This document shows, one piece after another, positions 1-23,600 of a DNA stretch of 41,122 nucleotides. The stretch is from a virus. The position numbers were made by a program, and so were the translations under genes. Numbering within the stretch: position 1 is the stretch's first letter; each line of letters begins with the position of its first letter. The stretch covers positions 1 through 41,122 of IMG/VR virus record IMGVR_UViG_3300006793_005398; one strand, 5' to 3'. The notes below the pieces were generated by a model. It searched no databases. It had not been told where the DNA came from and was given only the letters and a program-made list of their open reading frames with translations.

Positions 1-411
1 GAACGCAGTAATGTTACTAACACTTGGCATTGCTTTAAATTTATCACTAATACTAGTAGTCATATCATTTGTTGTAGTATCCATCTTTAGTGTAAGCATA
101 CGTGGTAATAACTTAACGCCACCGTACCCATACTCTAATCCGTTGATAGGATTTTTTGCTCTCCACACATGAACACAATCTAAATCGTAACTACTAACTT
201 CGTGATCAAATTTAAAATCGTCTACTATCTGGGCGTCACCATCTACTACCCAAAACATTTTTGTAAAACATTTTTTAGCACCTGCTACGTGTGCTTGGTG
301 AATTCCTTTAACGTCTTTAACACGCTTTGCCATTGGATACTGTTGTTTAAGTTTATCCCAATTACTATCAGCGTTTGCTTCACCGTAACTTATAAAAACA
401 ATATCATACAT
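1..411 (-). CDS. Glycosyltransferase-like protein, GT-A type (C-terminus cut off by window edge)
   Basis: The reverse strand reads open from an ATG at 411 to the window edge, giving 137 residues with no stop, so the C-terminus is missing. The start MYDIVFISYGEAN and the acidic VVDGDAQI stretch (Asp57-Gly-Asp59) look like the nucleotide-sugar/metal site of GT-A glycosyltransferases. It is clearly homologous to the protein at 7204-8088: both have a D-I-(V/I)-F-x-S-Y start, P-x-A-K-R-V, an Ala-His pair, a DGD motif and an N-G-L-x-Y-G-x-G stretch. It overlaps the SGNH-like gene upstream by 8 bases, so the two are probably translationally coupled. Sugar donor and acceptor are unknown. The GT-A assignment rests on these motifs only. 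Confidence 0.72.
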   Translation of the reverse strand, partial: MYDIVFISYGEANADSNWDKLKQQYPMAKRVKDVKGIHQAHVAGAKKCFTKMFWVVDGDAQIVDDFKFDHEVSSYDLDCVHVWRAKNPINGLEYGYGGVKLLPRMLTLKMDTTTNDMTTSISDKFKAMPSVSNITAF

Positions 412-1312
412 GTGGTGCTATCTCGTTAGCTAGTTCCTCTTGTATTGTTCTATCTACATGACAGTTATCTGGGAACATGTCGCTGTTTGTCATAATCTCA
501 ATTACTTTTTCGTACTCGTCAACTATAGTTTTAAACTCTGTATCTTCTCCTTCTGGTATCACAGGAATATTAAGTTCAGGTTTTTGTCTAGCAAACATGC
601 GTAAACTTTCTGCCGCATTTTCTGTTAGGTCTGGTCTGCGTCTACGAACGTTTTCTGCTGTACCCCAACTACTAATTAATGGTACTGGTCTTCCTAATAT
701 TTTATCCATCCACTCACGATGTACATATTTTATAAAAGTGTACTTACTAATATCTTTAGGTAGTTTACCCCAACCTTCAATTACTAACCAAGGTATACCT
801 GTTTGCTCGTAAATTGCTTGTGCGCCATCTAATGCTATTGTAAGTAATTCATCATTTATATCTTTAATGCTATTAGCATTTCTAATTTTATCTTCGCTTT
901 TATCGTAATACTTTTGCAAGTCATATAGTCCTGCTTCATCTGGCCATAAACTTCTTTTTAGATCTCTACAAGGCTCAGTAAGCATCCATATAATTAAATT
1001 AGGTTTGTAAAATACAGGACTAGTAAAACAAGGTGCAAGACCCAATGCTTCTTCAACTTTAAAAATTGCTTCAAAGTTGCCTGATCCACCAAAGGCATAA
1101 TTAGCAGTAGCATGACCCATTTGATCTAAGTTATAACCAAACCCTGGCCATACAACTTGAAAAGGCTTAGGTGCAGTACCTTCTAAGTATTTGTCCTTGT
1201 TCCACGGTTCGTATAGTTCCGGGTGTTTAGGATTTGCACAGGCAGGTCCTGGAATAACAGTTCCCCATTCGCCTAGTGCATTACTATCACCAACAATTAA
1301 AATTTTCTTCAT
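404..1312 (-). CDS. SGNH/GDSL-hydrolase-like protein
   Basis: A 302-residue protein. Its N-terminus MKKILIVGDSNALG has the GDS nucleophile block of SGNH hydrolases (Ser10), and near the C-terminus D282-N-C-H285 fits the family's catalytic DxxH pair. SGNH enzymes add or remove acyl groups on sugars, lipids or peptidoglycan. The middle of this protein is not one I recognise, so the substrate is unknown. The start overlaps the stop of the dehydrogenase gene as ATGA (4 bases), and the stop overlaps the next glycosyltransferase by 8 bases, so all three form one transcription unit. Neighbouring sugar genes make a carbohydrate O-acyl esterase or transferase the most likely role (inference). Confidence 0.7.
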   Translation of the reverse strand: MKKILIVGDSNALGEWGTVIPGPACANPKHPELYEPWNKDKYLEGTAPKPFQVVWPGFGYNLDQMGHATANYAFGGSGNFEAIFKVEEALGLAPCFTSPVFYKPNLIIWMLTEPCRDLKRSLWPDEAGLYDLQKYYDKSEDKIRNANSIKDINDELLTIALDGAQAIYEQTGIPWLVIEGWGKLPKDISKYTFIKYVHREWMDKILGRPVPLISSWGTAENVRRRRPDLTENAAESLRMFARQKPELNIPVIPEGEDTEFKTIVDEYEKVIEIMTNSDMFPDNCHVDRTIQEELANEIAPHV

Positions 1313-2481
1313 CTTGTGTTTCCATAATGGAATACTTCTAACTTTTTAGACTCAAACTCTCTCCAAGGATCAACTACAACACTTCCTTCACTGAGATAAC
1401 AGTAAAGAGTTGGATGTGCCAATAATGCTACGGCTGTGAAAGGACCTTTTTGTGGACTAGCCATTGGATCAACTTCAATACAATGATAGCCTGCTTCTTT
1501 ACAATAATGTCCTACTAACAAACTATAACTTCCGTCAGTATATGGTACTCCTGGTTTATATGCAATGCCATTTAGCAAAATTGGTAAAGAACGCTCCTCA
1601 GCAATCTTAATTAAATAATTTGCCATATTTTTAGCCTGCACTTCTCTTGCATTCATTATAGCATCAAATATGTCATATTGCAACCCCAAGTTTTGAGCCA
1701 TGTAGCGTAGAGCTATATTATCTCTTGGATGACATGCTCCACCATCGCCCATTCCTGCTTTCATATAACTTGGACCCATTATACGCTGATCGCTTTTGGC
1801 AAGTGCATTAGTTACTACATCAACATTAATATGTCCTTGCTTTTCTGCAACATCTTGTATCATATTAACCAATCCAATTTTTGCACTAATAAATGTATTG
1901 TAAAATACTTTGATACATTCGCACTCGTCCCACGTTCCAATTTCATAACGTGGATTGTTTTCCATTATAGTTTTGTAAAAGTCTACTAATTCTTTTGCAT
2001 CACCTGTAATATCTCCATTGTCTGTACCAATCATAATCATTTCAGGATTAACCATATCCCAAGCTACTGTACCCATAGCAATCAAATAAGGATTATAAAC
2101 AAATCTAGTATTAGTTACTAGTGGTGCAAATTCTCTACGTACTGTGCCTGGTAATACTGTACTAATTAATACAAGTAATTGATCTTTATTCATGTGCATG
2201 TTTGCTTCACGTATACAATCAATTACAATGTCGTATCCAAAGTCTTTAGGTTCTAAATGAGCTGTAGGTGCTTTGCCATCATAGTCTGGATGATGTGGAG
2301 TAGGTACTGCAATGAATACAATATTTCTATCCTTAACAGCCTCTTTGATACTAGAACAAACTGTTACTTTGTCGCTCTTAACATTAACAACATCATACCC
2401 TGTTACATCATGACCTTTTTCGGCAATGACTTCTGCACAAGGTAACCCCAGTTTTCCTATACCAATAAATCCAATCTTCAC
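1309..2481 (-). CDS. UDP-glucose/GDP-mannose dehydrogenase family protein
   Basis: NAD-dependent nucleotide-sugar dehydrogenase, expected to oxidise C6 of a UDP- or GDP-sugar to a uronic acid. Visible motifs, numbered from the GTG start: Rossmann GxGxxG at residues 7-12, FIAVPTP near 56, STVLPGT near 107, ECIKVFYNT near 188, and the catalytic cysteine block GGACHPRD with Cys250 and the Asp that follows. The C-terminal domain has GIAYKPG. The Arg usual in the family's DDxRxSP motif is not seen; the region reads TDGSYSL. I prefer the GTG at 2481 because GGAG lies six bases before it; a TTG at 2493 would add four residues, but the SD would then lie inside the coding sequence. It is the first gene of the leftward unit. 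Confidence 0.85.
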   Translation of the reverse strand: MKIGFIGIGKLGLPCAEVIAEKGHDVTGYDVVNVKSDKVTVCSSIKEAVKDRNIVFIAVPTPHHPDYDGKAPTAHLEPKDFGYDIVIDCIREANMHMNKDQLLVLISTVLPGTVRREFAPLVTNTRFVYNPYLIAMGTVAWDMVNPEMIMIGTDNGDITGDAKELVDFYKTIMENNPRYEIGTWDECECIKVFYNTFISAKIGLVNMIQDVAEKQGHINVDVVTNALAKSDQRIMGPSYMKAGMGDGGACHPRDNIALRYMAQNLGLQYDIFDAIMNAREVQAKNMANYLIKIAEERSLPILLNGIAYKPGVPYTDGSYSLLVGHYCKEAGYHCIEVDPMASPQKGPFTAVALLAHPTLYCYLSEGSVVVDPWREFESKKLEVFHYGNTR

Positions 2482-2507
2482 TATGATCTCCAATCATTAT
2501 ATACGTA

Positions 2508-2515
2508 CATAAATA
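2508..2515 (+). promoter_or_regulatory. Late-promoter-like octamer CATAAATA (rightward)
   Basis: CATAAATA differs by one base from the T4 late promoter TATAAATA and ends 27 bases before the ATG at 2543, leaving a short leader. It forms the left arm of a perfect inverted repeat whose right arm is the equivalent octamer for the leftward gene. Confidence 0.5.
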
Positions 2516-2521
2516 TAGTAG

Positions 2522-2529
2522 TATTTATG
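2522..2529 (-). promoter_or_regulatory. Late-promoter-like octamer CATAAATA (leftward)
   Basis: On the minus strand this reads CATAAATA, 40 bases upstream of the GTG at 2481. It would drive the dehydrogenase, SGNH and glycosyltransferase unit. With the arm at 2508-2515 it forms a 22-base inverted repeat with 8-base arms and the spacer TAGTAG, so the two putative promoters face each other and their start sites would nearly coincide. Confidence 0.5.
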
Positions 2530-2542
2530 GAAAGTTAAACAC

Positions 2543-3829
2543 ATGAAGTTAATTCAAGACTCTATTGCAAAGAACGATTATGTAGCTCGACCGCATACTA
2601 CGCAGTCTATTGAAAAATTAAAAGAAGCTATTAGTGCCGGAAAACACAAGTTAATTGATGTAAGTGCAATACATTGTTTAATTCAGTATCCTGATTGGCA
2701 TACTGATCTTAACTTGTTTAGATTTGTAAAACCCAAAGCATTAAAACAATTAAAAAACGATCCAAAGTGTTTTTTCCTTTTTGATACAAGTACAGAAGGC
2801 TTTAGTACAATACACGATGTTCCATACTTTGATGTGTTATATTATAGTTGCGAACAAGCAGGTGTTGATCCTGAAAAAGTTATATTTTTTAGTTCGAACA
2901 TGTATGATGAAACTAATATTGTACGTTTTAATATGGAACACAATAAACAAAAATCTATTAAGGTTGTTACGTTTAATAACTTTGAATCAATGCTGTTTGG
3001 TATAGCTGGTGCTCAAAGTATTGGCGATAGTGTACAACAACAGATTGACGGCGAGACTTGTGACCAGTATGTTGAAAGACGCATGAAACAAGAAAAACAA
3101 GAAGTTGCACAACGCTATAAGGGTAAAATATTTTTAAGTTTAAGTCGTGTTAATAGACCGCACCGTACATTGAGTGCTTACGAAATTTTTCATAGTGATT
3201 TATTTTATCACGGATTAGTAAGTCATGATTTATTTAAAAAGAAAACATTAAAACATTGGCATAGTTATCAAATGCCAACTGGTTGTAATATATCAGGAAG
3301 TGATATTAAAAAGTGGCAGAAGAATGTTCTTCCGCTTACAATAGACACTGATGACTTTGTAACTAATCATGCTATGAATCTAAGTAGTTACTTGCACCAA
3401 CAAACATTGTTTCAAATAGTAAACGAAACGTTTGCAGAAAATTGGCAGGGAACTAGTTTGTTCTGGAGTGAAAAAACTTTTAGAAGTATATATCACTTAC
3501 AACCTTTCTTAATATTTGGACAACGACATGCTAATCTAAAACTACAAGATTACGGCTATAAGATCTTTGATAACAACTTTGATTATAGCTTTGACGAAGA
3601 ACACGATACATATAAGCGTTGGTCTAAACTTAGAGTAGAAGTTGAAAAACATGTAAATAGAATATCAGCTTTGCCTATTACTCATCAGATTGACTGGCGT
3701 TGGCGACAAGCTGATCTACTAGCACACAACTTAAAAACAATGGTAGACGAGAATCATACTAAGAGTCAAATGACCGGCTTAGTTAAATACATGGTAGAGA
3801 AAATAAATGAGCAAGAAACTAATACATAA
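2543..3829 (+). CDS. Glycosyltransferase-like protein with EKTF motif (function unproven)
   Basis: A 428-residue protein, one of only two plus-strand genes in the window. The N-terminal 190 residues are unfamiliar. The C-terminal half contains F-L-S-L-S-R-V-N-R-P-H-R-T (residues 197-209), then W-S-E-K-T-F-R-S-I (308-316) followed by QPFLIFG and a D-Y-G-Y-K-I-F stretch. An Asn/Arg-rich HR block followed by an EKT-F-x-x-I/PF block is a pattern in uncharacterised phage, giant-virus and bacterial proteins, and resembles the E-K-x-x-x-(A/P) donor-site block of fucosyltransferase-like GT-B enzymes. That link is inference. It overlaps the downstream SGNH gene by 23 bases, which places it in a sugar-modification pair. 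Confidence 0.5.
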   Translation: MKLIQDSIAKNDYVARPHTTQSIEKLKEAISAGKHKLIDVSAIHCLIQYPDWHTDLNLFRFVKPKALKQLKNDPKCFFLFDTSTEGFSTIHDVPYFDVLYYSCEQAGVDPEKVIFFSSNMYDETNIVRFNMEHNKQKSIKVVTFNNFESMLFGIAGAQSIGDSVQQQIDGETCDQYVERRMKQEKQEVAQRYKGKIFLSLSRVNRPHRTLSAYEIFHSDLFYHGLVSHDLFKKKTLKHWHSYQMPTGCNISGSDIKKWQKNVLPLTIDTDDFVTNHAMNLSSYLHQQTLFQIVNETFAENWQGTSLFWSEKTFRSIYHLQPFLIFGQRHANLKLQDYGYKIFDNNFDYSFDEEHDTYKRWSKLRVEVEKHVNRISALPITHQIDWRWRQADLLAHNLKTMVDENHTKSQMTGLVKYMVEKINEQETNT

Positions 3830-4679
3830 TACTCCACGGAGAATTTTTACCTTTGGTTGTAGCTTTACAGGTTATCAATGGGGTACATGGGCTAATATTT
3901 TAGGTGTAGAATTTCCTGAAGCGGAGTTTAGAAACTTTGGTCGCAGTGGTGCAGGTAATCAGTATATACACAACATGATTATGCAGGCTGATAATGTATA
4001 CAACTTTACACACGAGGATCTAGTTATTGTACAATGGACTAATGTATGTAGAGAAGATAGATATCTACCTGAAAAAGACGGATGGCTAGTACCTGGTAAT
4101 ATATTTTCACAAGGTGACTATAATCAAAACTTTATTGAAAACTACTTTAGCGAGTTTGGATCGTATGTTAGAGATTTTGCACTAATTAAAAGTGCCCACC
4201 AATTACTTAAACATCGTTGCAATCATCATATGATTAAGATGTTAGATTTTGAATATTCAAATCAATGGGAATTAAAACCAAACCCAGACTTAAATTTACA
4301 AACACTTACACATATGTATGAAGAAAGTATAGGTCAAATACTACCTAGCTTTTATGCTACGCTGTGGAATAATAACTTAGAAGCTAAATTAGCAAAAGAT
4401 AAAAAAATTGTACATAAACTTTTCCATGACGGACATCCTACTCCACTCGAACACTACGACTACTTAAAGACAGTATTCAAACATGACTGGAGTGATAAAA
4501 CTGACAAAGTAGTAGGTGCCACACAAAAGAAATGGGTTAAATTAATGACAAGTGCATGTTTGGGTCAGCCTGGACAGGGCTTTAGCTTGTATGAAATGAA
4601 ACAGCGTTGGTTGGATATGTTAAAGTACGAAACTATTATGCGTCCTAATACGCAAATTAATCCGTTAATACGTCAATAA
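3807..4679 (+). CDS. SGNH-hydrolase-like protein
   Basis: A 290-residue protein with the family blocks in order: F-G-C-S-F-T (Ser19 nucleophile), N-F-G-R-S-G-A-G-N-Q (block II, oxyanion Gly), V-I-V-Q-W-T-N-V-C-R (block III, Asn79), and H-D-G-H-P-T-P-L-E-H near residues 207-215, carrying the Asp/His pair. It is not a close relative of the SGNH protein at 404-1312: spacing and block sequences differ and it lies on the opposite strand. An ATG at 3807 preceded by AGAGAAAATAA was chosen; it overlaps the gene before by 23 bases. Its 3' end overlaps the convergent radical SAM gene by 23 bases. Substrate is unknown; O-acyl chemistry on a glycan is the likely role. Confidence 0.72.
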   Translation: MSKKLIHNTPRRIFTFGCSFTGYQWGTWANILGVEFPEAEFRNFGRSGAGNQYIHNMIMQADNVYNFTHEDLVIVQWTNVCREDRYLPEKDGWLVPGNIFSQGDYNQNFIENYFSEFGSYVRDFALIKSAHQLLKHRCNHHMIKMLDFEYSNQWELKPNPDLNLQTLTHMYEESIGQILPSFYATLWNNNLEAKLAKDKKIVHKLFHDGHPTPLEHYDYLKTVFKHDWSDKTDKVVGATQKKWVKLMTSACLGQPGQGFSLYEMKQRWLDMLKYETIMRPNTQINPLIRQ

Positions 4680-5850
4680 GTTCTGGAAACGTTTCGTCAA
4701 AAGAACGATTACGTATTTTATCAAAATACATATTTTTAGATTTAAACAAATCATTTGCACTTTGGTCAAATGTTGACTTTTGCAAGTAATCAATAACACC
4801 ATTTACATATCTTAAATGTTCTGTATGCGTTACTGTATTTGCGTATGCTTGTAACTTATCTATTGCTGTGTGTCTTTGTTCATCTGTTAGTGCATTAAAA
4901 CTATAATGATTAGGTTCAACAATATTATAAAGCGTACTATTGTTTACATCAAATCCTTTACCAGACATGTATTCTAAAAAGTCTACAAGTGTTAGTACAT
5001 TAAATGCACTTACTACACAATTAAAACTAATAATTACATGCGGACTTTCTTCTTTAATAATTTTTAAGTTCTGTTCTATAGTTGGCCAGTCAGTACCTTC
5101 TCTAATATACTCACCTCTGTTTCCATAGCCGTCAATACTTGCACGTACTTCAACGTGTTTAAAATTATTCCAATACTCTGTAATACTTTTCTTCTTAAAA
5201 AATAAATTACTTAAATTACTATTATATTGCAGTACAGCATCAGTCTTTTTATTTTCAATTAAATAATCTAAAATATCATAATGCTTATCTGTAATAAGAG
5301 GCTCACCTCCTGCAAAATAATAATCTTGAATACCTTTGAGGTATGGCTTAAACTGTTCGAAAAGGTTATCGTTGTTGTCGCCGCCTGCAAAAATGTATAC
5401 AGGTTTATTTTCACCTTGCTTGTTATCTTCTACAGCCCATGTAGAACTGTAAGTACTACTACAGGTTCTGCATTTAAAATTACAAATATTACTCCAACGC
5501 ACATCAAAGTATAACAACTTCATTATATCTAACGAACCGTCAAAATTGGTTTCGTCTTTTATACTAATATGCTGTGCAAATCTATTATTTTGTGCAATTC
5601 TATTGCTTTCTAAACCTGCTTCTTCGTGCTTCCAACATTGTGTACACGCACTAGGCTTTTCGTTGTTTAATAATGCAAGTCTTAATTTTTTATATTCTTC
5701 ACTATTCCATATTTCTTCAATAGTGTTATTACGTGTGTTACCAAGAGGTTGTCGCCAATCGCCTATACAACAAGGAAGTACGTTGCCGTCTGGATTAGCA
5801 TAGAAATGAATCCAAGGAAGTATGCAAAATGTATTACTTTCCGCAGTCAT
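4657..5850 (-). CDS. Radical SAM protein, twitch/SPASM type (second of a pair)
   Basis: A 397-residue protein. The radical SAM cluster motif C-N-F-K-C-R-T-C gives Cys123, Cys127 and Cys130 (CX3CX2C), followed by Y-F-A-G-G-E-P-L at 178-185, the SAM-binding GGEP. The N-terminus has extra cysteines (Cys9, Cys27, Cys28, Cys69, Cys72) in FCILPW and CTQCWKHE, arranged like the auxiliary-cluster segments of twitch/SPASM proteins but placed before the core. The C-terminus ends in the SFDETFPEL block that its neighbour also has. The start overlaps the upstream radical SAM gene by 17 bases and has AAGG eight bases before. Substrate is unknown: peptide modification or sugar radical chemistry are both possible, and the glycosyltransferase neighbours favour sugars only weakly. 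Confidence 0.85.
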   Translation of the reverse strand: MTAESNTFCILPWIHFYANPDGNVLPCCIGDWRQPLGNTRNNTIEEIWNSEEYKKLRLALLNNEKPSACTQCWKHEEAGLESNRIAQNNRFAQHISIKDETNFDGSLDIMKLLYFDVRWSNICNFKCRTCSSTYSSTWAVEDNKQGENKPVYIFAGGDNNDNLFEQFKPYLKGIQDYYFAGGEPLITDKHYDILDYLIENKKTDAVLQYNSNLSNLFFKKKSITEYWNNFKHVEVRASIDGYGNRGEYIREGTDWPTIEQNLKIIKEESPHVIISFNCVVSAFNVLTLVDFLEYMSGKGFDVNNSTLYNIVEPNHYSFNALTDEQRHTAIDKLQAYANTVTHTEHLRYVNGVIDYLQKSTFDQSANDLFKSKNMYFDKIRNRSFDETFPELIDVLTD

Positions 5851-7207
5851 TATAAAAGCCTTCTAGTTCTGGAAACGTTTCTACTAAGTTACAATTACGT
5901 CTACGGTCAAATTCTTTGAACCAGTTGTGAAAATCTCTACGTGCTTGTTCTAGTTTACGTGGTTCATAATGTGTTGTACGCATATACTCTACTACACGCT
6001 TAAACTTTTCATATTCTAATCCTGTAAACTTAGTACGATCGTTGTCGTCTTGGTTGTCTTTAATAAACTGTAAATGTTTTTCCATATATGGCATGAATTC
6101 TTCTTTAGGTAAAATGTTCATGTCATATATACTTGGTTCTTTTAAATGAGGTGTGTCAAATCTAACACGTTGCCATTGTGTGGCATTGTCATCACTATTG
6201 TATTTTGTACGCCACTCTAGTATTTTTTCTAATAGTTGCGTAAAACTAGTTACACCAAATATATTAAATGTAATCATAAATGTTACAGGCCAGTTTGTAT
6301 TGCTTAGATAGTAATCTAAGTTTTGTTCCCATAACTTAATGTCTAAACCAGTACGGGCATATTCAGCTCTTGGTCCCCAAGTATCAATACTAGTGTACAA
6401 TTTAAAACTTTTAATCTTACCTTCTGCTTTTAAACGCTTAACTGTTTCAGTTAGCTTTTCAACTAGCTTAGGCTTAACACCCATGTTACTGTTTACTTCA
6501 ATTTGTATGTGTGGCTTAGGATCGTTGTCTAACTTTTCTAACAGTTTCCAAAAACTTTTATGCATTAACGGCTCGCCGCCTGTAATACGCAAAATGTTTA
6601 GTGTCTTACTAAGTTCAGGCCACCATTCCCAGAACGCTTTTACGTATGGATTAGTATCTTCGTCCTTTTGTACTTCAAACCAATCAATGTCTTGCCTATG
6701 TGTGCTTGACATGTCGTATGGTCCATGTTGTTTTATTTCGTTCCAGTACCTACTAGAGGCTTTAGGATGACAGTATCCACACTTGAAATTACATTCATTA
6801 CTAAAACTAATTTCAATATACTCAGGATTTACGTTAAAATCCGCCCCTTTTTGTTTTATTTCCGCTACTCTTTCGGGTGTGTATATACTTGCTGTTTTAA
6901 TATGCCTATCACTTATAAAGTCTTTACCCATTGCTTCAATTTTCCAACAGTAACTACAACCGTCTGGTTTATCTCCACATAGCATTTGTTTACGTTGTTC
7001 TTTTTTCTCAATAGTGTTGTGTAACGCACTAGGATTGCCTTCTAATTCTTCTAAAGGAATCTTATGTGGAGCAGGATGGTAACAACTATGCGTTTCTCCT
7101 GTTGCAAGATAGATAGTTGTGTGATGCCATTTTGCTAAACAGAATGTTGGAGAGGTTTCACTCTCAATTTTAGGCATTACTGTCTTAATTTTTTCTAGTT
7201 CATTCAT
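5834..7207 (-). CDS. Radical SAM protein, twitch/SPASM type (first of a pair)
   Basis: A 457-residue protein. The core motif C-N-F-K-C-G-Y-C gives Cys139, Cys143 and Cys146, and L-R-I-T-G-G-E-P-L at 206-214 is the SAM-binding loop. N-terminal cysteines 23, 42, 77, 84 and 87 (FCLAKW, SCYHP, CSYCWK) match the layout of its downstream partner, and both end with (V/D)-E-T-F-P-E-L, so the two are paralogues. About 60 residues longer than the partner, mostly between the N-terminal cysteines and the core and around 150-200. The ATG overlaps the upstream glycosyltransferase stop as ATGA. Similar twitch-type radical SAM proteins are familiar from marine phage genomes; no substrate is established. Confidence 0.85.
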   Translation of the reverse strand: MNELEKIKTVMPKIESETSPTFCLAKWHHTTIYLATGETHSCYHPAPHKIPLEELEGNPSALHNTIEKKEQRKQMLCGDKPDGCSYCWKIEAMGKDFISDRHIKTASIYTPERVAEIKQKGADFNVNPEYIEISFSNECNFKCGYCHPKASSRYWNEIKQHGPYDMSSTHRQDIDWFEVQKDEDTNPYVKAFWEWWPELSKTLNILRITGGEPLMHKSFWKLLEKLDNDPKPHIQIEVNSNMGVKPKLVEKLTETVKRLKAEGKIKSFKLYTSIDTWGPRAEYARTGLDIKLWEQNLDYYLSNTNWPVTFMITFNIFGVTSFTQLLEKILEWRTKYNSDDNATQWQRVRFDTPHLKEPSIYDMNILPKEEFMPYMEKHLQFIKDNQDDNDRTKFTGLEYEKFKRVVEYMRTTHYEPRKLEQARRDFHNWFKEFDRRRNCNLVETFPELEGFYNDCGK

Positions 7208-8088
7208 TTACGAATAACTCTGTCCGTGTTAATATATACTTGTTTGAAAAAATGACTTTGTTCATCGTCAAAAGGTGCAGACGATATAGGTAATCCACAC
7301 TCACTGCTAAGACGTTGACCTAATTCTTTACTGTATGCTAATGGGTCTTTGTCTTTTGTTTCTTCCCACAGTTTATTAAGATATACAAAGTCTCTTGTTT
7401 GTACAAAGTCCCAATCTGTACACGTTGTCATATAACAACCTTGTCTTGCTCCCATTACACTCCATATACCGTTGTCTACATCAGCACCAACTTGCATCCA
7501 TATCAACAAACGCTGATAATTTTGCCACCAAGTATCGTTTGCAAGGTCTTTAACTTTAGCACCTCTATTCAAACTCATCTTGACTCCTTCACGGAACCCT
7601 GCTCTCCATGCTTGATGTGGAGTTGCATTTATAAGACTTGTACTATAGTTGTCATTTAATTGATAGTAATTATCAAAGTAACAAAATTCAATACTAGTAT
7701 CATCTTCACCGTCTGTATTTTCATGCGTTTGCATATTTTTTACAAAGTCTTTAGTCCACATTTTTAAACTGCCGTTACCGTACTTTAGTCCGTTAACATT
7801 AATATGTCCACACCAACTAAATTGGTAGTCATCGTCAACTTTTAATTCGTCTAAGTCTAATACTACATTTAAAAACTCTGGATCAATAACTGTATCGCCA
7901 TCTACTGTAACAAAGTGTTTAGTTTCGCTCAATTCAGCACAGGCTTTGTGTGCCGCATCAGAACCTTCTACACCATGTACACGCTTTGCCCACGGAACTT
8001 TGTTAACTAAATCAACAAAATTCTTTTCACAGTTAGGCTCGTCATAAGATAGAAATATAATATCCTGCTCTGCAATGTTTATTTTCAT
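7204..8088 (-). CDS. Glycosyltransferase-like protein, GT-A type
   Basis: A 294-residue protein. I-I-F-L-S-Y-D-E-P-N opens a Rossmann-like region, then V-P-W-A-K-R-V, and H-F-V-T-V-D-G-D-T-V-I-D places a DGD at 63-65, the expected metal and nucleotide-sugar site of GT-A enzymes. Paralogue of the truncated protein at 1-411 over at least 120 residues. The C-terminal part (W-R-A-G-F-R-E-G around 170 and L-A-Y-S-K-E-L-G near 260) is not recognised. Start and stop both overlap neighbours by 4 bases as ATGA, and AGGT precedes the start, so translation is coupled through the operon. Acceptor and sugar are unknown. Confidence 0.7.
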   Translation of the reverse strand: MKINIAEQDIIFLSYDEPNCEKNFVDLVNKVPWAKRVHGVEGSDAAHKACAELSETKHFVTVDGDTVIDPEFLNVVLDLDELKVDDDYQFSWCGHINVNGLKYGNGSLKMWTKDFVKNMQTHENTDGEDDTSIEFCYFDNYYQLNDNYSTSLINATPHQAWRAGFREGVKMSLNRGAKVKDLANDTWWQNYQRLLIWMQVGADVDNGIWSVMGARQGCYMTTCTDWDFVQTRDFVYLNKLWEETKDKDPLAYSKELGQRLSSECGLPISSAPFDDEQSHFFKQVYINTDRVIRK

Positions 8089-8675
8089 TTGATTACCTCG
8101 TACATATATCTATCAAAGTTTTTAATAGTATATACGCTAACTGGTTTTGCACTAAACTCAAAATCACTATCAAAAGGAAGTACTACATATTTTATATCTG
8201 ACAAATCAGCAAAACTAAAACTTAATGTTTTTAGTAATATATTTGGATCGTCTTTTTCTGTAATACTAAATGTTATTGTATTTTTAAAGTTAACTTTTTG
8301 TGCCAAGATGTTTGCTTTTAAATCGCCGCCAATAGTAATCTTCCAACATGTATCTTTAATATTTTGTAATACGTGAATATCAGGTGTTTCATCTGACACA
8401 CTTGGTAGCTGATATATTAGATCGTCTACTAGATAACTGTCAATACTAGTATTAGAACGTTGTCTAAGTTCATATTGTTTAGCACGTTTAATATAGTGTA
8501 CGTAATAGTAGCTAAGAGGTTCTTCTCCTGAAATTATACCTTTAACTTCATGCTCCTCTACAGGAATATAACTTCCTTCTTTGGGTTTATAATTAGGTAC
8601 TGAAATAATATCTCCGTTTGCAGGATCAAATACTACATACCTTTCTTGCTTAGGTAACTCTACACTTAGTTTCAT
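8085..8675 (-). CDS. Uncharacterised beta-rich protein in the glycosyltransferase operon
   Basis: A 196-residue protein I do not recognise. It has no signal peptide or membrane segment. The N-terminal third has short strands around a YVVFDPANGDIISV segment, the middle is a charged helical stretch (HYIKRAKQYELRQR), and the C-terminal half alternates polar and hydrophobic residues as in a beta sandwich (ITIGG, NTITFSITE, LLKTLSFSF, IKYVVLPFD). It sits between two glycosyltransferase genes with ATGA overlaps at both ends, so it is co-translated with them. A partner or target of the enzymes, or a small virion protein, are both possible; nothing in the sequence decides. Confidence 0.6.
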   Translation of the reverse strand: MKLSVELPKQERYVVFDPANGDIISVPNYKPKEGSYIPVEEHEVKGIISGEEPLSYYYVHYIKRAKQYELRQRSNTSIDSYLVDDLIYQLPSVSDETPDIHVLQNIKDTCWKITIGGDLKANILAQKVNFKNTITFSITEKDDPNILLKTLSFSFADLSDIKYVVLPFDSDFEFSAKPVSVYTIKNFDRYMYEVIK

Positions 8676-9505
8676 ATGTTAAGATACCTTTCGTACTTTT
8701 GTATTTTAGATGCATCTAAAAATTCTTTCTCAGTATAATGGAAAATACCTTGCTGTTGATGATTACCTATTTTTAATTGTAAGTCATCTGTTAGATATGC
8801 TCCTACTCTACTACGCCAAGTTTCACTAGGGTTATACCAACCTTGTATTCTAGGCTTCATATGTGTAAAACTAGGAAACGTTACTTTCTTGTTTGTAATT
8901 TTATCTTCACAATCTAGTATCTTTGTAACGATTGCTGTGCTTGTGTCAACACTTAGAAAGTTTTGATACTCTTTACTTGCATACTGACCGTAAAAGAACT
9001 GCCAGTTGTTCATTACAAGCTCTAACCATGAATAAAAGTCTTTGGCAAAGTCACATTTTTTAAAGTAATGAAAGCCTGCATATACGTTTGGTAAGTTATT
9101 TGCAATATATGTTTTACGATAGTAATTATCATTTACTACTTCGCCTCTGTATGTGTATACTTTGCTAGTATAGAACACTTCATAGTTGCTTAAAAAGTTC
9201 CACCATGAGTCTAAGTTTTGTAATACAAGCATATCTGTGTCCATTACAATAGTTTCATCATAAGGACTAGCATGATATAACTTCCAACGGTTAGCTACTT
9301 TCCATTCCATGTTAGCAGAATCGTCTTCCCACGGTATTTCTTTAATAACATCGAACAGATCTACATACCTAGATGGTACTGTATCGTTGGTTAACAAACA
9401 AACTTTAGTGTCATTAGTAGCTCTAATACTCATAGCTAACGCACACGCTTGTTCTACGTAGTCATATTCGCTGTTTTGTGCTATTAAAACTATTCCTTTA
9501 GACAT
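8672..9505 (-). CDS. Glycosyltransferase, GT8-like (second of a tandem pair)
   Basis: A 277-residue protein. G-I-V-L-I-A-Q-N at the N-terminus, a run of A-C-A-L-A-M-S-I-R (residues 20-28), and P-Y-D-E-T-I-V-M-D-T-D-M-L-V-L at 81-95 with the D-x-D pair Asp89/Asp91. The P-Y-D-x-T-(I/V)-x-(L/M)-D-x-D block is the pattern seen in glycogenin-like and GT8/LgtC-type enzymes, which transfer a sugar from a nucleotide donor with retention. W-W-N-F after the DxD and F-H-Y-F-K-K near residue 146 are shared in spirit with the adjacent paralogue. The start overlaps the preceding gene by 8 bases. Confidence 0.72.
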   Translation of the reverse strand: MSKGIVLIAQNSEYDYVEQACALAMSIRATNDTKVCLLTNDTVPSRYVDLFDVIKEIPWEDDSANMEWKVANRWKLYHASPYDETIVMDTDMLVLQNLDSWWNFLSNYEVFYTSKVYTYRGEVVNDNYYRKTYIANNLPNVYAGFHYFKKCDFAKDFYSWLELVMNNWQFFYGQYASKEYQNFLSVDTSTAIVTKILDCEDKITNKKVTFPSFTHMKPRIQGWYNPSETWRSRVGAYLTDDLQLKIGNHQQQGIFHYTEKEFLDASKIQKYERYLNI

Positions 9506-10346
9506 TATCTATGATCCTATTCAAACTGAACTTGTTCATAACGTGAACACTACTACCTTTAATACGTAAAGGTGTGTATTCTCCAAGGTGTCCGTCTTTT
9601 TCTACTAAAAATAAAAAGTTATCATCTTTTAATTCCCACAGTATATCTCTATCTGCTGTGTAATACTTTTTGCCTGGTAATGAACTTGCAAAACTACCTG
9701 CTTGATATCCGTTCATAATATGTATTGCAATACTAAACACCCAATCGTTACGAAACGTTGATTTGTTAATTTGAAAAATACTATTATAGTGTTGCCAGTT
9801 ATCTTGTATATGTTGTGTTAAGTTAAAGAATGTTTCTACTTCTTTGCTTTTCTTAAAGTACACAACAGTTGCCCAGTAAAAGTCTACACTAGTTTCGCTA
9901 ATTCTTTGAAACTCTGTAGTATCTCTAAATCCTGTTAGGTCTTTTGCGTCTTTATATATTAGGAAATTGTGTTCTTGTGTAAAACAATTTTTAAGTACAT
10001 CATTTGCAATGATATAATCACTGTCTAACATTATTGTTTCGTCATATGGTGTTAGTTCATATGCTTGTGTACGCAAGTCGTTTTTAAATGCAAGTTGTTT
10101 ATATACACCCGAACCGTCATAGTAACGTTTTTCACTTGCCGCTCTAGTATTTGGTACTTCAATGACCTTGTCAAATACTGTTTCGTAGTCTGTGTATGTT
10201 GCTTTTAAGTAATCGAGACTGTCTGTTACAACAGTTGTTGGTAATCCAAGATATTGTTTAATACGCTTTGCTAGATAATGAGCTTGTTTTAAGTAATCTA
10301 CTTCTAAGTTATTTCTAGCAAATATTAATGCACCTCTATTCTTCAT
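9498..10346 (-). CDS. Glycosyltransferase, GT8-like (first of a tandem pair)
   Basis: A 282-residue protein. A-L-I-F-A-R-N-N at the N-terminus, followed by the same A-x-x-L-A-x-R-I helix as its neighbour, and P-Y-D-E-T-I-M-L-D-S-D-Y-I at 100-112 with Asp108 and Asp110 as the metal-binding DxD. The shared P-Y-D-E-T-I block shows that it and the gene at 8672-9505 are paralogues, but they have diverged elsewhere. The start overlaps the 117-residue protein by 11 bases. Because it is the first enzyme gene after the small protein, it is made at the head of the operon. Donor and acceptor sugars are unknown. Confidence 0.72.
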   Translation of the reverse strand: MKNRGALIFARNNLEVDYLKQAHYLAKRIKQYLGLPTTVVTDSLDYLKATYTDYETVFDKVIEVPNTRAASEKRYYDGSGVYKQLAFKNDLRTQAYELTPYDETIMLDSDYIIANDVLKNCFTQEHNFLIYKDAKDLTGFRDTTEFQRISETSVDFYWATVVYFKKSKEVETFFNLTQHIQDNWQHYNSIFQINKSTFRNDWVFSIAIHIMNGYQAGSFASSLPGKKYYTADRDILWELKDDNFLFLVEKDGHLGEYTPLRIKGSSVHVMNKFSLNRIIDNV

Positions 10347-11646: not shown

Positions 11647-13137
11647 CTATACTTTCAGAATAGCTTCTACTAAGCCTTCTTCATCTGCTTCTGGTTCCCA
11701 ACTCTCTAATGCAATACCTACTAGATAATGTCCTTCAGCTCTAATAGTATGTCCTATGCCTTGTGAGTCAGCGTAAATTGCTTCACCCTTATTAATGATC
11801 CCTGTTACTCTTACTGGAACACGCCCTTTAAGTGCAACTGCTTGGCCTTCTGCTTCGCTGTTCATTAAGAACGCAGGTTTAGCACTAATTACACCTACTG
11901 GAATTTCAGTTGGTTCAATAGCTCTTACTTCTGCATCTGTTTCTTCGTCAAATTTTGGAACACTAACAATAGTTCCTGTTGGTAATTCTTCTGCTGTTTT
12001 ATAAATCTCAGCCAAGTCAGCATATTCTGCTGATGTTGCTGTACCTGTAAATTTGTTTGCTACTAAATTACCACTTGCATCTCTAACTGCTACTGTGTTA
12101 TTAGTTGCCGCTGTATCTGCACTACGGTAGTTTACACCAACTTGCATTTTTGAAGCGTTTTCTGCTAACCCATAAAAGTTAGTGGCGTGCATTTCACTGA
12201 ATACAGCACCTGTTCCGCCAATTGCGTATGTGTTAGTAGAACCAGGCATAATACCTGTGTCTTGTACTGTTGCTACGTGTTGCTCAACACCACCTGTGTT
12301 ATCAACTTTAAGTTTAATTTTAGTTCCAACGTCATTTTTAATAACGCCTTCGTTGTCATTTTCAATAAAGATTTTTAAATCACTTGAGTTACCAATTGAA
12401 ATACCTGCATCTGCAAAACTAACAAGTGATGTAAATGATCCTGAACCTGCTAGTGCAAAGTCAGTAGCACTATAGCCACCTAGTTTTAATGAGTTACTTG
12501 CTGTACCCCAGTAATAATCCTGTGTACTTGTAACACCGCCTGTTGCGTTTGTTGTATTTCTTAGTGTTAAACCTTTTTTGACAACGTCAAATCCTGTAAT
12601 AGCATTAAGTGGGTCTGTACTATCAATAGTAAATGTTGCACCTGAAATAATATAAATTGTTTCATCGTTAACAATAGCCTTAATAACTAATCTGTTTACG
12701 TTAGTTGTATCTCTAACGTTAGCTGAAACCATCTGTGTAACAGTTGTACCTGCACCTTGTGGTCCTACTAGTACATAACCTGTACCGCTATATGCGTATA
12801 ATTGTTCGTTTGTTGAATCCCACCATAGGTCACCTGTTGCTAAACCAGCTGGTGCAGTTGCGGCAACTTCAGCACCGCCTGTAGTTCTAAACTTAGATCC
12901 ATCATAAAATTTTAGCTTATTAGCACCCGAGTCGTACCAAACCTGTCCTGAAATGGCCTTTGGAGGTTGGTTAGCACCACTAAAGTTTTCTAATAAGTGT
13001 AAAAAGTTTTCGTTCTGAATTTCACCGTAACCGGCGTAATTTTTACCAACTAGTTTAATATCACTAGTTTGATCCACGGTTCCATCTTCAACAACTGTTA
13101 AAGTAGTTCCATTATATCTATCAATAGTATATGCCAT
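11647..13137 (-). CDS. Tail-fibre-like adhesin with C-terminal YADLAE-type domain
   Basis: A 496-residue protein. Residues 1-130 hold a module shared with two neighbours: G-K-N-Y-A-G-Y-G, E-N-F-L-H-L-L-E-N-F, G-Q-V-W-Y-D, L-K-F-Y-D-G and G-D-L-W-W-D. A middle segment (ITGFDVVKKGL, then GISIG) is also shared. From about 370 a different tip begins, with S-A-E-Y-A-D-L-A-E-I-Y, then P-V-G-V-I-S, A-F-L-M-N-S-E and V-A-L-K-G-R-V-P-V-R-V. This YADLAE-start domain is a common C-terminal cap of marine phage fibres, in some annotations linked to Peptidase_G2-like or chaperone domains; I did not find a catalytic residue. The ribosome site AGAGG is near the ATG and GATAAATA lies further upstream. Likely host-contact fibre. 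Confidence 0.72.
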   Translation of the reverse strand: MAYTIDRYNGTTLTVVEDGTVDQTSDIKLVGKNYAGYGEIQNENFLHLLENFSGANQPPKAISGQVWYDSGANKLKFYDGSKFRTTGGAEVAATAPAGLATGDLWWDSTNEQLYAYSGTGYVLVGPQGAGTTVTQMVSANVRDTTNVNRLVIKAIVNDETIYIISGATFTIDSTDPLNAITGFDVVKKGLTLRNTTNATGGVTSTQDYYWGTASNSLKLGGYSATDFALAGSGSFTSLVSFADAGISIGNSSDLKIFIENDNEGVIKNDVGTKIKLKVDNTGGVEQHVATVQDTGIMPGSTNTYAIGGTGAVFSEMHATNFYGLAENASKMQVGVNYRSADTAATNNTVAVRDASGNLVANKFTGTATSAEYADLAEIYKTAEELPTGTIVSVPKFDEETDAEVRAIEPTEIPVGVISAKPAFLMNSEAEGQAVALKGRVPVRVTGIINKGEAIYADSQGIGHTIRAEGHYLVGIALESWEPEADEEGLVEAILKV

Positions 13138-13156: not shown

Positions 13157-13164
13157 TATTTATC
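13157..13164 (-). promoter_or_regulatory. Late-promoter-like octamer GATAAATA
   Basis: On the minus strand GATAAATA, one base from T4 late TATAAATA, lies 19 bases before the ATG at 13137 and 2-10 bases from the end of the upstream fibre gene. It would allow extra late transcription of the last two fibre genes. Confidence 0.5.
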
Positions 13165-17011: not shown

Positions 17012-17629
17012 TTAAACCTCGTTAAAACCTGTTAAACTCTGTACTCTAACAGTATAATCAATTTGGATTAGTCTGTTAAGTGATTTTTGTACAGGGTGGA
17101 AAATTACGTGTGTTAGCAATCTACCTGTTCCGCTAGTTGCATAACTTACAAGTCCTAACTCGTCAAACACATACAAACTATCGTTTGCTGTTGCGTTATC
17201 AAGAGCATCTTGTCCACTAGGCTCACCGTAGTCTAACAAACAAGTTGCTACAATATCTGTGTAGTTTGTTCCGCTTACGTGTCTAGTTTCTAATTTGTTT
17301 CTAGTAGGATCAACGTTATTAACATTGTTGTTGTCAATAACTTTAGCATATGTTTGATTGTACAAACTAGCATTAGTTCCTGTTGAGTTTGGTGACAAGT
17401 ACGTAATAATACCCGTTGGGTCTACGTTAGTACCGCCATTACCAAATGCCATTTGGTAGACCATACCTTGTCCTTGATTAGATAAACTTTCCGCTAATGA
17501 AATACTCATGTTCTCGTAGTGAATAGCATTACGCTTGTCCACCAAGATTTCACCAGTCTCTGGATTGTGTATCTTGATGTGCCCTTGCAAAAGAACACCT
17601 TGTTTATCGTTAAATTTGTCTGTCATCAT
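17012..17629 (-). CDS. Conserved virion structural protein of marine T4-like phages
   Basis: A 205-residue protein. Its opening H-I-K-I-H-N-P-E-T-G-E-I-L and N-A-I-H-Y-E-N-M-S, and the later F-G-N-G-G-T-N-V-D-P-T-G-I-I-T-Y-L, R-H-V-S-G-T-N-Y-T-D and H-P-V-Q-K-S-L-N-R, recur in proteins between the giant or gp7-8 region and the fibres in marine T4-like phages; annotations in relatives vary, including gp8-like. It may be an attachment or collar piece linking the giant protein to the fibres (inference). MM at the start leaves either Met as the initiator; GGAAAT lies just before. A late-promoter-like AATAAATA precedes it. Confidence 0.65.
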   Translation of the reverse strand: MMTDKFNDKQGVLLQGHIKIHNPETGEILVDKRNAIHYENMSISLAESLSNQGQGMVYQMAFGNGGTNVDPTGIITYLSPNSTGTNASLYNQTYAKVIDNNNVNNVDPTRNKLETRHVSGTNYTDIVATCLLDYGEPSGQDALDNATANDSLYVFDELGLVSYATSGTGRLLTHVIFHPVQKSLNRLIQIDYTVRVQSLTGFNEV

Positions 17630-17644
17630 TATTTCCTACAAGTG

Positions 17645-17652
17645 TATTTATT
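17645..17652 (-). promoter_or_regulatory. Late-promoter-like octamer AATAAATA
   Basis: On the minus strand AATAAATA, one base from T4 late TATAAATA, overlaps the stop codon of the giant gene and lies 15 bases before the ATG at 17629. The short leader contains the ribosome site. It would restart transcription for the 205-residue protein and the fibre genes after the 14.8 kb giant gene. Confidence 0.5.
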
Positions 17653-20600
17653 TAGGTAACGCCACCTCTGTTGTTCTTAAGAACCTTGCAATGTCATTTT
17701 CCTGCCTATGTAGAGGAATTCCAGTGTCAGTCCAAGGTCTACCAATGCGTCTAACCACCACTATCTTGGTATTAATAGGTGGTGTTTCAGCTAATACAAC
17801 AGTTGAAGTTGTTCCGTCGACACTAAATTCCGCGGGCGACACAATATCTGCCTCTGGACTGTCTAAATCAACAGTTGGATCATATGTATTTATTGCATTT
17901 TTACGCAGGCGCTTACCAGCGACAAATATTTCAAACTCATGAACTGAATTTGGAATAAAGTCTACTACAATGCTACTAGTTGAGCCATCTGCTGTAAATG
18001 TTTGCTGAAGTGTTCTATCTTGGTATGGTACAGTTTGCTTGTTACTCTGATCTAGTAATTCAGTTCCTTTAGCATGTACTGTTGCAATACCTGTTCCTAG
18101 TGTACCTCTACGTAACTGTCTAAGTACTCCGCCTTCTTTTAAGTAATATTCAATACGTTCTCCATCAACAAATACAATTCCTGGAATACTACGCTCTTTG
18201 TTTGGTTGAGGTAGTGTATCAGAGTTAGTAACTTTGATGCTAGTATCGTAATAGTTTAAGTCTTCAGCTAAGAAGTAACGTGAATCATCACCTAAACGTT
18301 TAAAGTGTGTTCTATTAAGCATATCTTTGAATTGACTAAATCCAAACTTAGGAATTATAGTGCTATTACTAAAGTGTATTACCTCTAATTCATCGTTTGC
18401 ATCAATATCAACTACTACTCTAATAGTTACTTTATCTTCTAGTAATGTATATTCAACGTTTGGACTTAATAGTTCGCCATTTTTAGTTAACCATACATAA
18501 CTTGTATCAATTGCAGGAGATCTTAGTTTAACAAAACCGTTTGCTAACTGATGATATTCATTATACTCTGTTGTATCTGTTGTAAGTGTAGCTCTTGCAA
18601 CAACGTCTAAATTAATTCTTTCAATTTTTGCAATATCATGATTGCTAAATTGGTAAACAGTTACTTTCTCGCCATTTTGTGGAGCAGTAGTTAACTGTAC
18701 TTGGTTTGGTGTTTCAACCCAATAGCCATTAACATCAAACTTTCCAAAGTCATACTCTCCGTCACCTAGTAAGTAAACATCTAAAATGTCTCCGTTGTTA
18801 CCAACACCAGCAAACAATTCAACACTTGAATTAAATCTATTCCAAATATAACTTGTTGATAATATTTGCTCTACACCGTTTAAGAATACTTTAATTTTCT
18901 CTGCTGGTATCTGTGCAAGTCCAACTTGCCAATCACGCAATTTGTATTCTCTAGTTGATGAAACTGTATACTGTTGGTTGTATCCTGGATTAAGTATTTT
19001 ATTACCTACTTTAACAACTACGCTGTTTGCTAATGGGCGTTGTGTAAACGGTGCATTAGCTAAAGTAAATCCTTGTAACGACCCTGAACCTGTAAACTCA
19101 TCAATTGAAATCTGTGAGAACGACTTGGCCGCACTATCATAAATTACATACTGTATAAGTTCGCCTGGAAGAGGAGCAATCGGTAGTCTAAGTAATACTT
19201 GACCTGATGTTTCGTATGTTGCATCTGTTTCTGCAAGTACAGCATCAATTGGAGCACCATCTTTTGTAATAAACAAACTTAGTCCTTGTTTAAACTTAAC
19301 TGATGTAACAAACACTGATGTTGATCCATCACCTGTAAATGTGTCTGCATCAAGAATGTTTTCACCGTTTGCTGACATTGTAATAATGTTAACACTTTGT
19401 CCGTTTGCTATTGCAACGCTGTCATCTAATGTTAATGTTTTATCTTGATAATTTACAGTAAACAAACTGTTATTACCTGAATCTAAAATTGTTCCGTTAG
19501 CTTTAACAAATACATCTTTGCTACTTGCTGGTACTCTATCAAGATTAAATGTACGGCTTCCTGTGTAAATGTAGTTGTAATTATTAATAATACTTGAACC
19601 ATCATTGATTCTGTCGTATACTTTAATGTTTACACTATCAAGTAATTGTCCTGGAACAAGTTCTTCAGGTCCTTTTGATGTTAACGGAGTTACAAACCCA
19701 TCACCATCAACTACAATTTCTTCTGCACTAATACCTTTTGCAGTTGAGTACGCTATGTCACCACCTTGCAACATTGTGTCATATGCATCTGCATCTGGTA
19801 AGAAGCTACCGTCACTTGTTGATTTTCTAATAACAATTACATCGTTACCTGCTGTTGGAATCTTATCATTGTCAATAACAAATGTATCTGTTGTACCATC
19901 ACCTACTAGTGAATTCATTACTGCATTTGGATTACCTGGAACTGTTGATCCATCATATTCTGGATCGTCAATTCTAATACCGTTTTTATATACGTTATAT
20001 GTAACGCCATTAACTAATGGAGCAGACAATGTTAATACTTGTGTACTTCCATCTAATTGGAAAATCTCATCTTCGTATGTTGAATCATATGAATCCCATG
20101 TAGTTGTGTAGTATGGCTCGTTGCCATAACCTGTACCAGTATTAAATGCAAAACTCTTAACTTGTACTCCACCGTAATCAACACCGTCCATTAACTGTGA
20201 AATATCATTACCTAACTGTCCTGTAGTTGGATTGTAGAATAAGTTAATTCTATCTTGTGCTTGTAGCATTGATACATCTTTTTTGTATGTAACAACAATA
20301 ACTGCATTATTAACTGGCGGATTTTCAAATGTAATACGCCCTTTATATCTTGTGTAAGACTTATCAGTATATTCTTTATTACTAACTGAATAGTTTCCTT
20401 GCAATTCTTCAATACCATTAACTGTAATAGTAACTTGGTTACGTCTTACGTCCATTGGCCATTTAACATCAAATAATGTTCTGCTGTTATTGCCTGCAAA
20501 CGTTTGTGTTTCTGCTAATGATGTAATTAAAAACGTTCCTGTTACACGGTCAAACTTACTACGCAAGTGCATAGCTCTAATTTTACTATTACCTATTTGT

Positions 20601-23600
20601 GCTGACGCTTTAGCAATTCTGCTTTCGTTAACAGTTGATAAACTACCTTCAATTTCAATAGTTGGTGCTGACAAATAACCTGAACCTGGATTTGTAACTT
20701 CAATGCTTACAACACTTCCGCCTGATCCTAGTTTAGCAAGTCCTTTAGCACCTGTTCCGCCACCGCCTACAAATTTAATAACAGGTATTTCAGTATACCC
20801 TATACCTTTGTCGCTGATGTTACAGTTAGTTATTTCAAAGCCTACGTTATCTAACCAATGTTTGTTTGGATAAGTGTTTAGTGTTGCATCTTGTCCGTAG
20901 ATTAAATTGTCTTTAACTTTGAGTGATGCTGGTTCAATACGCTGTGTATCTTCGTTGTATTGTGGAGCAAAGTCAAAGTCACTAGTACTACTCGCAGTTA
21001 AATCTGTTTTAGTATAGTTACTTAGGTATTCTCTAATTTTTGTTTTAAAAGGTTTAGTTTCTTTAACAAATTCTTCGTAGCTTGGTAAGTTATCATTTTG
21101 GAATGTAACTTTTTGTTGTAAATCACCAGCATTGTGTTTTGCCTTAATGAAACTAGTTTTAAATGCCCAATCAACAAACGGTTGCTCTGCAAACGCATAT
21201 CTAACACTTGCTAAGAATAACTGATTGTATTCTACTTCTAAGCCATCAACAAATATATCATCTCTAAGTGCTTTTAAAATAATACGTAATTCATTAGTTG
21301 GTTGATTATCGTAGAATGCTGTATCGTAACTTAATCCGTCAAAGCCTACAAAGCTCTTAGTAAAGTTATACAGTTCTTCTTTAAATTCTATAGTTCCGTT
21401 TTCACGTCCAATAGTTCTGTAGTTAGTTGTATAATCACTTGCTTCTTCGTTACTAATTTTTTCTAGTAACAACCAACCGCCAGTACCAATGTTTTTAATT
21501 TTAACAATATCACCAATGGTATCATTTAACGATGTTAGTAAGTAACTTTGATCAATAGTAAAATCAATATCAGTAAATTTACTATAACCTGTAGCATACC
21601 AATCAATATAGTTCCACCAGTTACTTACATCATAAGACTGTGTTGCTGTTCTTTGGTATTCTGCTAATACTGTGTTGTATGAAAATATTGACCATTTACT
21701 GTTTACAGTTTCGTCACTCTTAACAAGTACACTAAACAATCTTACTGATAAGTTTGTATTTGCTGAATAGTTTCTGCCTGGATTTCTAACTGTTACACTA
21801 CCAATACCGCCTGCGGTATTAAGTGTTAATGTAACCTGTGCTTTTTCACCATCACCAATTTGTTCAAACTCATATGTTGGTACTGTAAGGTAACCTGACC
21901 CTGGATTTGTAATATCAACTCTAATTAATTTTCCTTCTTCAAATACAGGAGTTAATGTTGCTGGTTTAACTTTTGAAATGTTAACAAAGCCAAGTTCAGA
22001 ATGTGTATCAATTGCTACATCATATTTAGAACTAATAATATCTGGCTGTGGGTCTGAAGATAATAAGTCAGTAAAGTTATATTCATCTACAATTAATTGT
22101 TGAGCCAACACTCTATTAGTACGTTCAATTACTTGTTTAAGTGCTTCAGTATTGTTTTTAAACATCGACTGTCTAGGTCTGTTAAGTATACCGTATTTCT
22201 GCTTAGGCGATAACGCTGGATCAGGAACTGGTCTATTATAAATGTCTACACCAACTAAACTATCAACCCATTTAGCTTCTAAATCTTTATTAGGTTTACT
22301 CGTTGCTAGTCCGTCAGTAATAAGTTGATACTGATTGTGTTGATTAATTTCTTGGTTAGGAATTGTCCAGTATCTAAAGTTAATTGCTTTTTTATCTTCT
22401 TCAACTAAACTACCGCAGTTGTATAATCCAAATCTATCATTGGCATAAACTGCAACAAATTTATAACCCTGTGCCGCTGGATCATTAATTAATTGTGCAA
22501 CATCATATGCACTTGATTTTCTGTTTTCAAGTGTAGGAATAATTTTAGTATTCTTAACCCAATAGTAATATTTGTTATAGAAACTTGCACTTACACTATT
22601 ATATAATCTTTTAGTTACAAAAGTAGCAGTTCCGTATTTAGGTGTTCCACTAATACCTCTTGCCAATCCATCTTCTGTATCAGCTAGTTCTAACCACTGT
22701 GTCGGTGTTAATGATGTTTCAACCCATTCATATACATCTATACTAGATCCAACCATTTGTTGATTGAAATTAGCTGTGTTATAAATGATATTGTTTTGGT
22801 ATGGCTCTATCCATTGTACTGTACTAATATCCCACCATAGTTTACCTACATGCTCGTTAGCCCAATAGTTTTCTGTATCTACGTTTACACCACTAGTTTG
22901 ATCTGTTTGTGTATAAGTTGCAGGATCAAACGGTGTTGTAAATGCTAATTCTTCTTCCGCCGGTCCAGCAATTTTTCCTTGGATAGGATCAATGTAATCT
23001 AATTGTGTTGCTGTTCCACTTCCGTCTTTGCTATAAACAAATACACCTTTGAATTTATCTAAGTTAACTTGTTTAGTTGGACTTCTATATGTCTGCCATG
23101 GAAGTTCGTTACGTTGACGTTTGTAATCTACGACTGTACCAATAAAGTTGTTACCTGTATTAGATGCACTTAGCTCTGGCATTGAAACATATATGTGGTT
23201 GTTTGACGCATGGATAAATTCTCCAAAGCGTTCAACGTTGCTGTTATTAAATGCTAATTTCTCTGCATACAATAAGTAACCACCAACATACTGGTAAATG
23301 AATACTTCACCACTGTCTAAGTTTTCTTTACTAAACTGTGTTAAGTTATTATCATATGTAGTTTCAACTGCTAAATCAGATTCTTTACTATTAACAAATT
23401 GTGCTGTAACAAGTGTACTGTCATCTAAGTAAGTCTGCGGTTGTGGATCCATTGCCGCTGTATATCTATCAAAGGAAGTGTTATCAACTAAGTTACCACC
23501 TTGTGATGATATCATTAGTTCGTTACCTGAGAAGTCAACTGTTTGACCAAAACGTTCTGCTACAGAACTATCTGGACTGTAAAGCTCTTGGAATAAATTA

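Follow-up and report, generated by a model that had tools for sequence, protein, structure and literature searches.

Probable face-to-face late promoters in the inverted repeat between two divergent sugar operons of a T4-like marine phage fragment

The window analysed here is the whole of a virus record of 41,122 bases (IMG/VR record IMGVR_UViG_3300006793_005398), which carries tail and baseplate genes of a T4-like phage; it is a fragment of a T4-like marine phage. Only one divergent gap is called in the window (2494-2542), and it lies between two sugar operons. As an earlier note on this DNA had stated, this gap holds an exact 22-base inverted repeat with 8-base arms, consisting of CATAAATA (2508-2515), TAGTAG (2516-2521) and TATTTATG (2522-2529). 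The minus-strand gene likely starts at the GTG at 2481, behind the Shine-Dalgarno sequence GGAG, rather than at the TTG at 2493 of the mechanical open reading frame, in which case the divergent gap spans 2482-2542 (61 bp). The features are as follows:

404-1312, minus strand: second gene of the minus operon, with no family match
1309-2481, minus strand: UDP-glucose/GDP-mannose dehydrogenase-family gene (Pfam PF03721 and PF00984; phrog_9148)
2508-2515, plus strand: putative late promoter element CATAAATA for the plus gene pair (2543-3829 and 3807-4679), a match to NATAAATA at -13 to -6 spacing; predicted start about 2521
2516-2521, no strand: spacer TAGTAG between the arms, containing both predicted starts; 5-12 bp long among relatives
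2522-2529, minus strand: putative late promoter element CATAAATA for the UDP-glucose dehydrogenase gene and the downstream gene(s); predicted start about 2516
2543-3829, plus strand: first gene of the plus operon (428 aa), whose Shine-Dalgarno sequence GGAAAG abuts the right arm
3807-4679, plus strand: second gene (290 aa), with which the plus operon ends; no family match above the cut-off
13157-13164, minus strand: single putative late promoter element GATAAATA upstream of a structural gene (11647-13137), for comparison within the window
17645-17652, minus strand: single putative late promoter element AATAAATA upstream of the gene at 17012-17629, for comparison within the window

The N-terminus of the 404-1312 product (MKKILIVGDSNALGEW) suggests an SGNH-type hydrolase. 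The 428-aa plus-strand gene had no match in Pfam, PHROG or PDB searches, and its homologue (37-68% identity) is the partner gene in most relatives with a divergent layout. Elsewhere in the window, radical SAM/SPASM and unidentified genes form a run (4657-10346) that adjoins the tail genes and occupies the position of a host-recognition or surface-modification island. The tail region also includes one open reading frame of 4944 aa (17648-32482), which is very large for a phage structural protein.

Each arm differs from the T4 late promoter TATAAATA at a single position, as previously claimed, and both arms match the degenerate motif NATAAATA, the late promoter reported for cyanophage S-PM2 (PMC2984593), with no mismatches. 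In T4, the late promoter element spans -13 to -6, and position -13 is only weakly conserved across T4-like phages (PMC1524935). Could such an arrangement arise by chance or from an AT-rich background? Perfect repeats with 8-bp arms and loops of 3-12 bp are equally common in shuffled sequence (nine in the window vs 14 expected), and we therefore dropped symmetry by itself as evidence. One-mismatch matches to TATAAATA are common as well, with 104 in the window, although this is a depletion relative to the 151 expected. Exact copies of ATAAATA on both strands of one 61-bp gap have an expectation of about 1.6e-4, and the locus is more aptly described as two ATAAATA motifs, one per strand, than as an 8-base inverted repeat. 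Conservation of the pair, described below, is far stronger evidence than this expectation.

The genome-wide distribution of ATAAATA also speaks against chance. The motif occurs five times in the window, compared with about 26 times for permutations of the same letters, and four of the five copies lie 15-28 nt before a gene. Four long relatives (148-200 kb) are likewise depleted in ATAAATA, and 65-71% of their copies stand before a gene (defined as 5-70 nt upstream) vs an average of roughly 5-8% for the permutations. Taking the window and the long relatives together, 65-80% of copies are found just upstream of genes. The motif thus sits where a late promoter would, a short distance before a gene that runs in its own direction, and is enriched at this position genome-wide. 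Judging from this placement, ATAAATA behaves as a promoter element that is avoided elsewhere in the genome. Given the depletion of the motif, its concentration before genes and the persistence of the pair in relatives whose neighbouring sequence has diverged, we consider the chance explanation negligible; it is already contradicted by the conservation pattern.

A late sigma factor resembling gp55 is present in all four long relatives (28-32% identity, E-values of 1e-10 to 1e-12), while the window is a 41-kb fragment from outside that region. A tblastn search of the same relatives with HTVC008M proteins gave no match to gp33 or gp45, for which the queries are short or diverged, and divergence is probably the cause of these missing matches. 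In the pelagimyophage HTVC008M itself (L129-L131), ATAAATA is also depleted, and 23 of its 45 copies precede genes, vs about 9 of 93 for permutations. Pelagimyophage late promoters have been looked for before, without success (PMC7029224). Our results indicate that this late-promoter element is identifiable with good confidence both in T4-like marine phages that are uncultured and in HTVC008M.

We then read the gaps upstream of related UDP-glucose dehydrogenase (UGDH) genes in 80 contigs and classified them as divergent or tandem (L042, L043 and L047 were counted as tandem), using gene calls that are heuristic in metagenomic contigs. The arm serving the opposite gene is present in 22/22 distinct divergent gaps, although this count overstates the number of independent trials, the contigs being related rather than independent lineages. 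An opposite-strand arm was found in none of the 35 distinct tandem gaps. Both arms are exact in 19 of the 22 divergent gaps, and in the remaining three the dehydrogenase-side arm has one mismatch (GTAAATA, CTAAATA and TTAAATA). The earlier note proposed that its reading would be refuted by relatives in which both operons are retained without the arms; these 22 gaps include no such case. The partner genes of the divergent relatives fall into four groups with no detectable mutual similarity. The spacing between the arms ranges from 5 to 12 bp, and at two loci (L066 and L071) their order is reversed, so that they stand back to back. This varied spacing and reversed order, together with the restriction of the opposite arm to divergent gaps, point to two independent promoters rather than one rigid palindrome. 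These comparisons of sequence give good support to a late-promoter role for both arms, each serving one of the two divergent genes.

A nucleotide search with the gap sequence gave no match in cultured phages. The nearest cultured UGDH loci, in Bellamy and HTVC008M, have the gene within a co-directional operon, and hence cannot be used to test the pair.

Two further patterns were seen in the gaps upstream of UGDH. Tandem loci with a gap of 145-157 bp (among L031-L057) have a conserved GTAAATA in the place of a late promoter; in 11 such loci, 10 of 20 GTAAATA copies stand before genes, perhaps mostly representing one site. L070 has CTAAATA, the late consensus of Aeh1. In addition, the minus-strand leader (2482-2507) contains an element near TACGYATATAATG directly before the dehydrogenase Shine-Dalgarno sequence, also seen in L060, L063 and L064. 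This element is kept in most divergent relatives, as well as in tandem ones without the paired promoter.

The perfect symmetry of the arms, and their position between divergent genes where such operators are typically found, could also be explained if the repeat were one palindromic operator to which a dimeric regulator binds, and if its likeness to late promoters were incidental. However, an operator would not be expected to tolerate spacers of 5-12 bp or the flipped order of L066 and L071, nor to lose its opposite arm in 35/35 tandem gaps. The arms are also copies of a motif that precedes genes throughout the genome, and single ATAAATA sites stand before other late genes in the window. We therefore consider an operator highly improbable.

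The repeat might otherwise act at the RNA level, by folding in early read-through transcripts into a hairpin that makes a ribosome-binding site inaccessible. At T4 I-TevI and segB, the late promoter forms one half of such a hairpin (PMC2988022, PMC3014915), and T4 face-to-face pairs coincide with precisely these hairpin-regulated genes. The repeat folds at -5.0 kcal/mol on the plus strand and -3.4 kcal/mol on the minus strand, and the plus-gene Shine-Dalgarno sequence lies directly beside the right arm. Unlike I-TevI, however, the stem (2508-2529) contains neither a Shine-Dalgarno sequence nor a start codon, and so does not sequester either of them in the manner of hairpin-regulated late genes of the I-TevI, segB and gene e type. 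The minus strand does not form the repeat hairpin in its context, and read-through across the repeat in a divergent gap would be antisense to the upstream gene. Given also that the spacing varies and that tandem relatives lack the repeat, this explanation is extremely unlikely.

We are thus confident that the repeat represents two T4-type late promoters, one per strand and face to face, which would save space while allowing expression in both directions, and would at most tune the ratio of the two operons. Placing the element at -13 to -6 (PMC1524935) predicts starts at 2521 (plus) and 2516 (minus), the same positions given in the earlier note. The two starts point away from each other from 5 bp apart, so the transcripts themselves would share no sequence. 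In this predicted geometry, the melted regions and -10 elements of the two promoters interlock. Following the T4 model, either promoter would be opened after the onset of DNA replication by host RNA polymerase carrying the late sigma factor gp55, acting with gp33 and the gp45 sliding clamp, and the two late operons would begin within about 5 bp of each other. Space is the simplest cause of this arrangement. With leaders of only about 20-40 nt and a small gap, the two elements would be pushed past each other, so that each -10 element lies immediately downstream of the opposite promoter's start. It is a reasonable inference from the geometry that two open complexes could not form at once. Both operons could still be expressed in the same cell, presumably by alternate firing and from many genome copies, and a modest effect of the pair on the operon ratio is possible.

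The earlier note further suggested that the two sugar operons could be mutually exclusive or stochastically chosen. In such a switch, a polymerase at one promoter would block the other, and most expression in an infected cell would come from a single sugar operon. The predicted open complexes overlap nearly completely, steric constraints prevent opposing polymerases from binding at E. coli bidirectional promoters, and the layout is kept in relatives, all of which would suit such a switch. However, T4 has this geometry between gene 4 and gene 53, both of which are needed in the same cell; gp4 (head closure) and gp53 (baseplate wedge) both go into every T4 particle. Six Straboviridae genera retain this pair, at spacers of 7, 7, 10, 7, 7 and 9. 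At E. coli bidirectional promoters, basal firing is too low for competition, and interference reduces noise by lowering cell-to-cell variation, although one direction could be repressed when the other was strongly activated (PMC12825309). The consequence of exclusion depends on the firing rate. We found neither a feedback element nor a memory element in the gap, and the variable spacing and order of the arms among relatives indicate that no fixed exclusion geometry is apparently under selection. With gene 4 and gene 53 required together under the same layout, and given the E. coli competition data, a mutually exclusive or stochastic choice of operon seems very unlikely. The claim of exclusive operons is therefore unsupported, whereas the identification of the arms as two late promoters is borne out by their conservation and their placement before genes. 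A face-to-face layout is not, by itself, a reason to propose a genetic switch.

The interlocked pair might couple operon output to replication. A sliding clamp can sit on DNA in either of two orientations, which sets the polarity of its contacts with other proteins (PMC2988020). Because the gp45 clamp drives only the promoter matching its orientation, fork direction and nick polarity would decide which promoter fires. We regard this as unlikely; if true, replication geometry would be reflected in the ratio between the two sugar operons.

The layout also occurs elsewhere. In all four long relatives, a baseplate-hub gene is separated from a virion structural gene by another face-to-face pair. 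Separately, two relatives share a back-to-back ATAAATA pair with a 7-bp spacer (TATTTAT-N7-ATAAATA; G003 at 144883 and G005 at 142346). The exact face-to-face pair was absent from S-PM2, Syn9, P-SSM2, Bellamy, HTVC008M and KVP40, and the layout is hence not universal. For T4 gene 4/53 and cyanophage Syn9, we found no usable mapped starts in the literature searched. Late promoters of S-PM2 and other cyanomyoviruses, served by the gp55/gp33/gp45 system, have exactly the motif of both window arms, but are described as single rather than paired (PMC2984593).

The closest known counterparts are in T4, where the exact face-to-face pattern occurs four times (gene 4/gene 53, inh/segE, segB and I-TevI). 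Two of these lie in divergent late gaps, with a spacer of 7 at gene 4/gene 53 and of 6 at inh/segE. The inh/segE pair (NC_000866, 112022-112041; ATAAATA-TAGATA-TATTTAT) shares the motif, the face-to-face order and the 6-bp spacer with the window, amounting to nearly the same 20 bases, within a divergent gap of 49 bp. A late promoter upstream of T4 inh has been mentioned (PMC2988022). The flanking genes differ, being a head-protease inhibitor and homing endonuclease/uvsW genes in T4, and sugar genes in the window. The gene 4/gene 53 gap (in T4, Dhakavirus, Jiaodavirus, Gelderlandvirus, Mosigvirus and Bragavirus) is likewise a short divergent late gap with face-to-face ATAAATA, but it separates virion structural genes, both of whose products are required per particle, rather than sugar genes.

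Outside phages, the window pair resembles the bidirectional promoters of E. coli and Salmonella (PMC10268837, PMC12825309), where divergent starts are too close together for two polymerases, and it would act in the same way to the extent that only one polymerase could sit there at a time. The details differ. The bacterial promoters superimpose their sigma70 -10 elements, with starts 7-25 bp apart (mostly 18), whereas the late -10 elements in the window stand side by side and its predicted starts, about 5 bp apart, fall outside the 7-25 bp of the Warman/Grainger criterion. Among UGDH relatives, the predicted separation takes values between 6 and about -1. These comparisons document a solution for short divergent late gaps that recurs from T4 to marine phages, namely the interlocking of late promoters.
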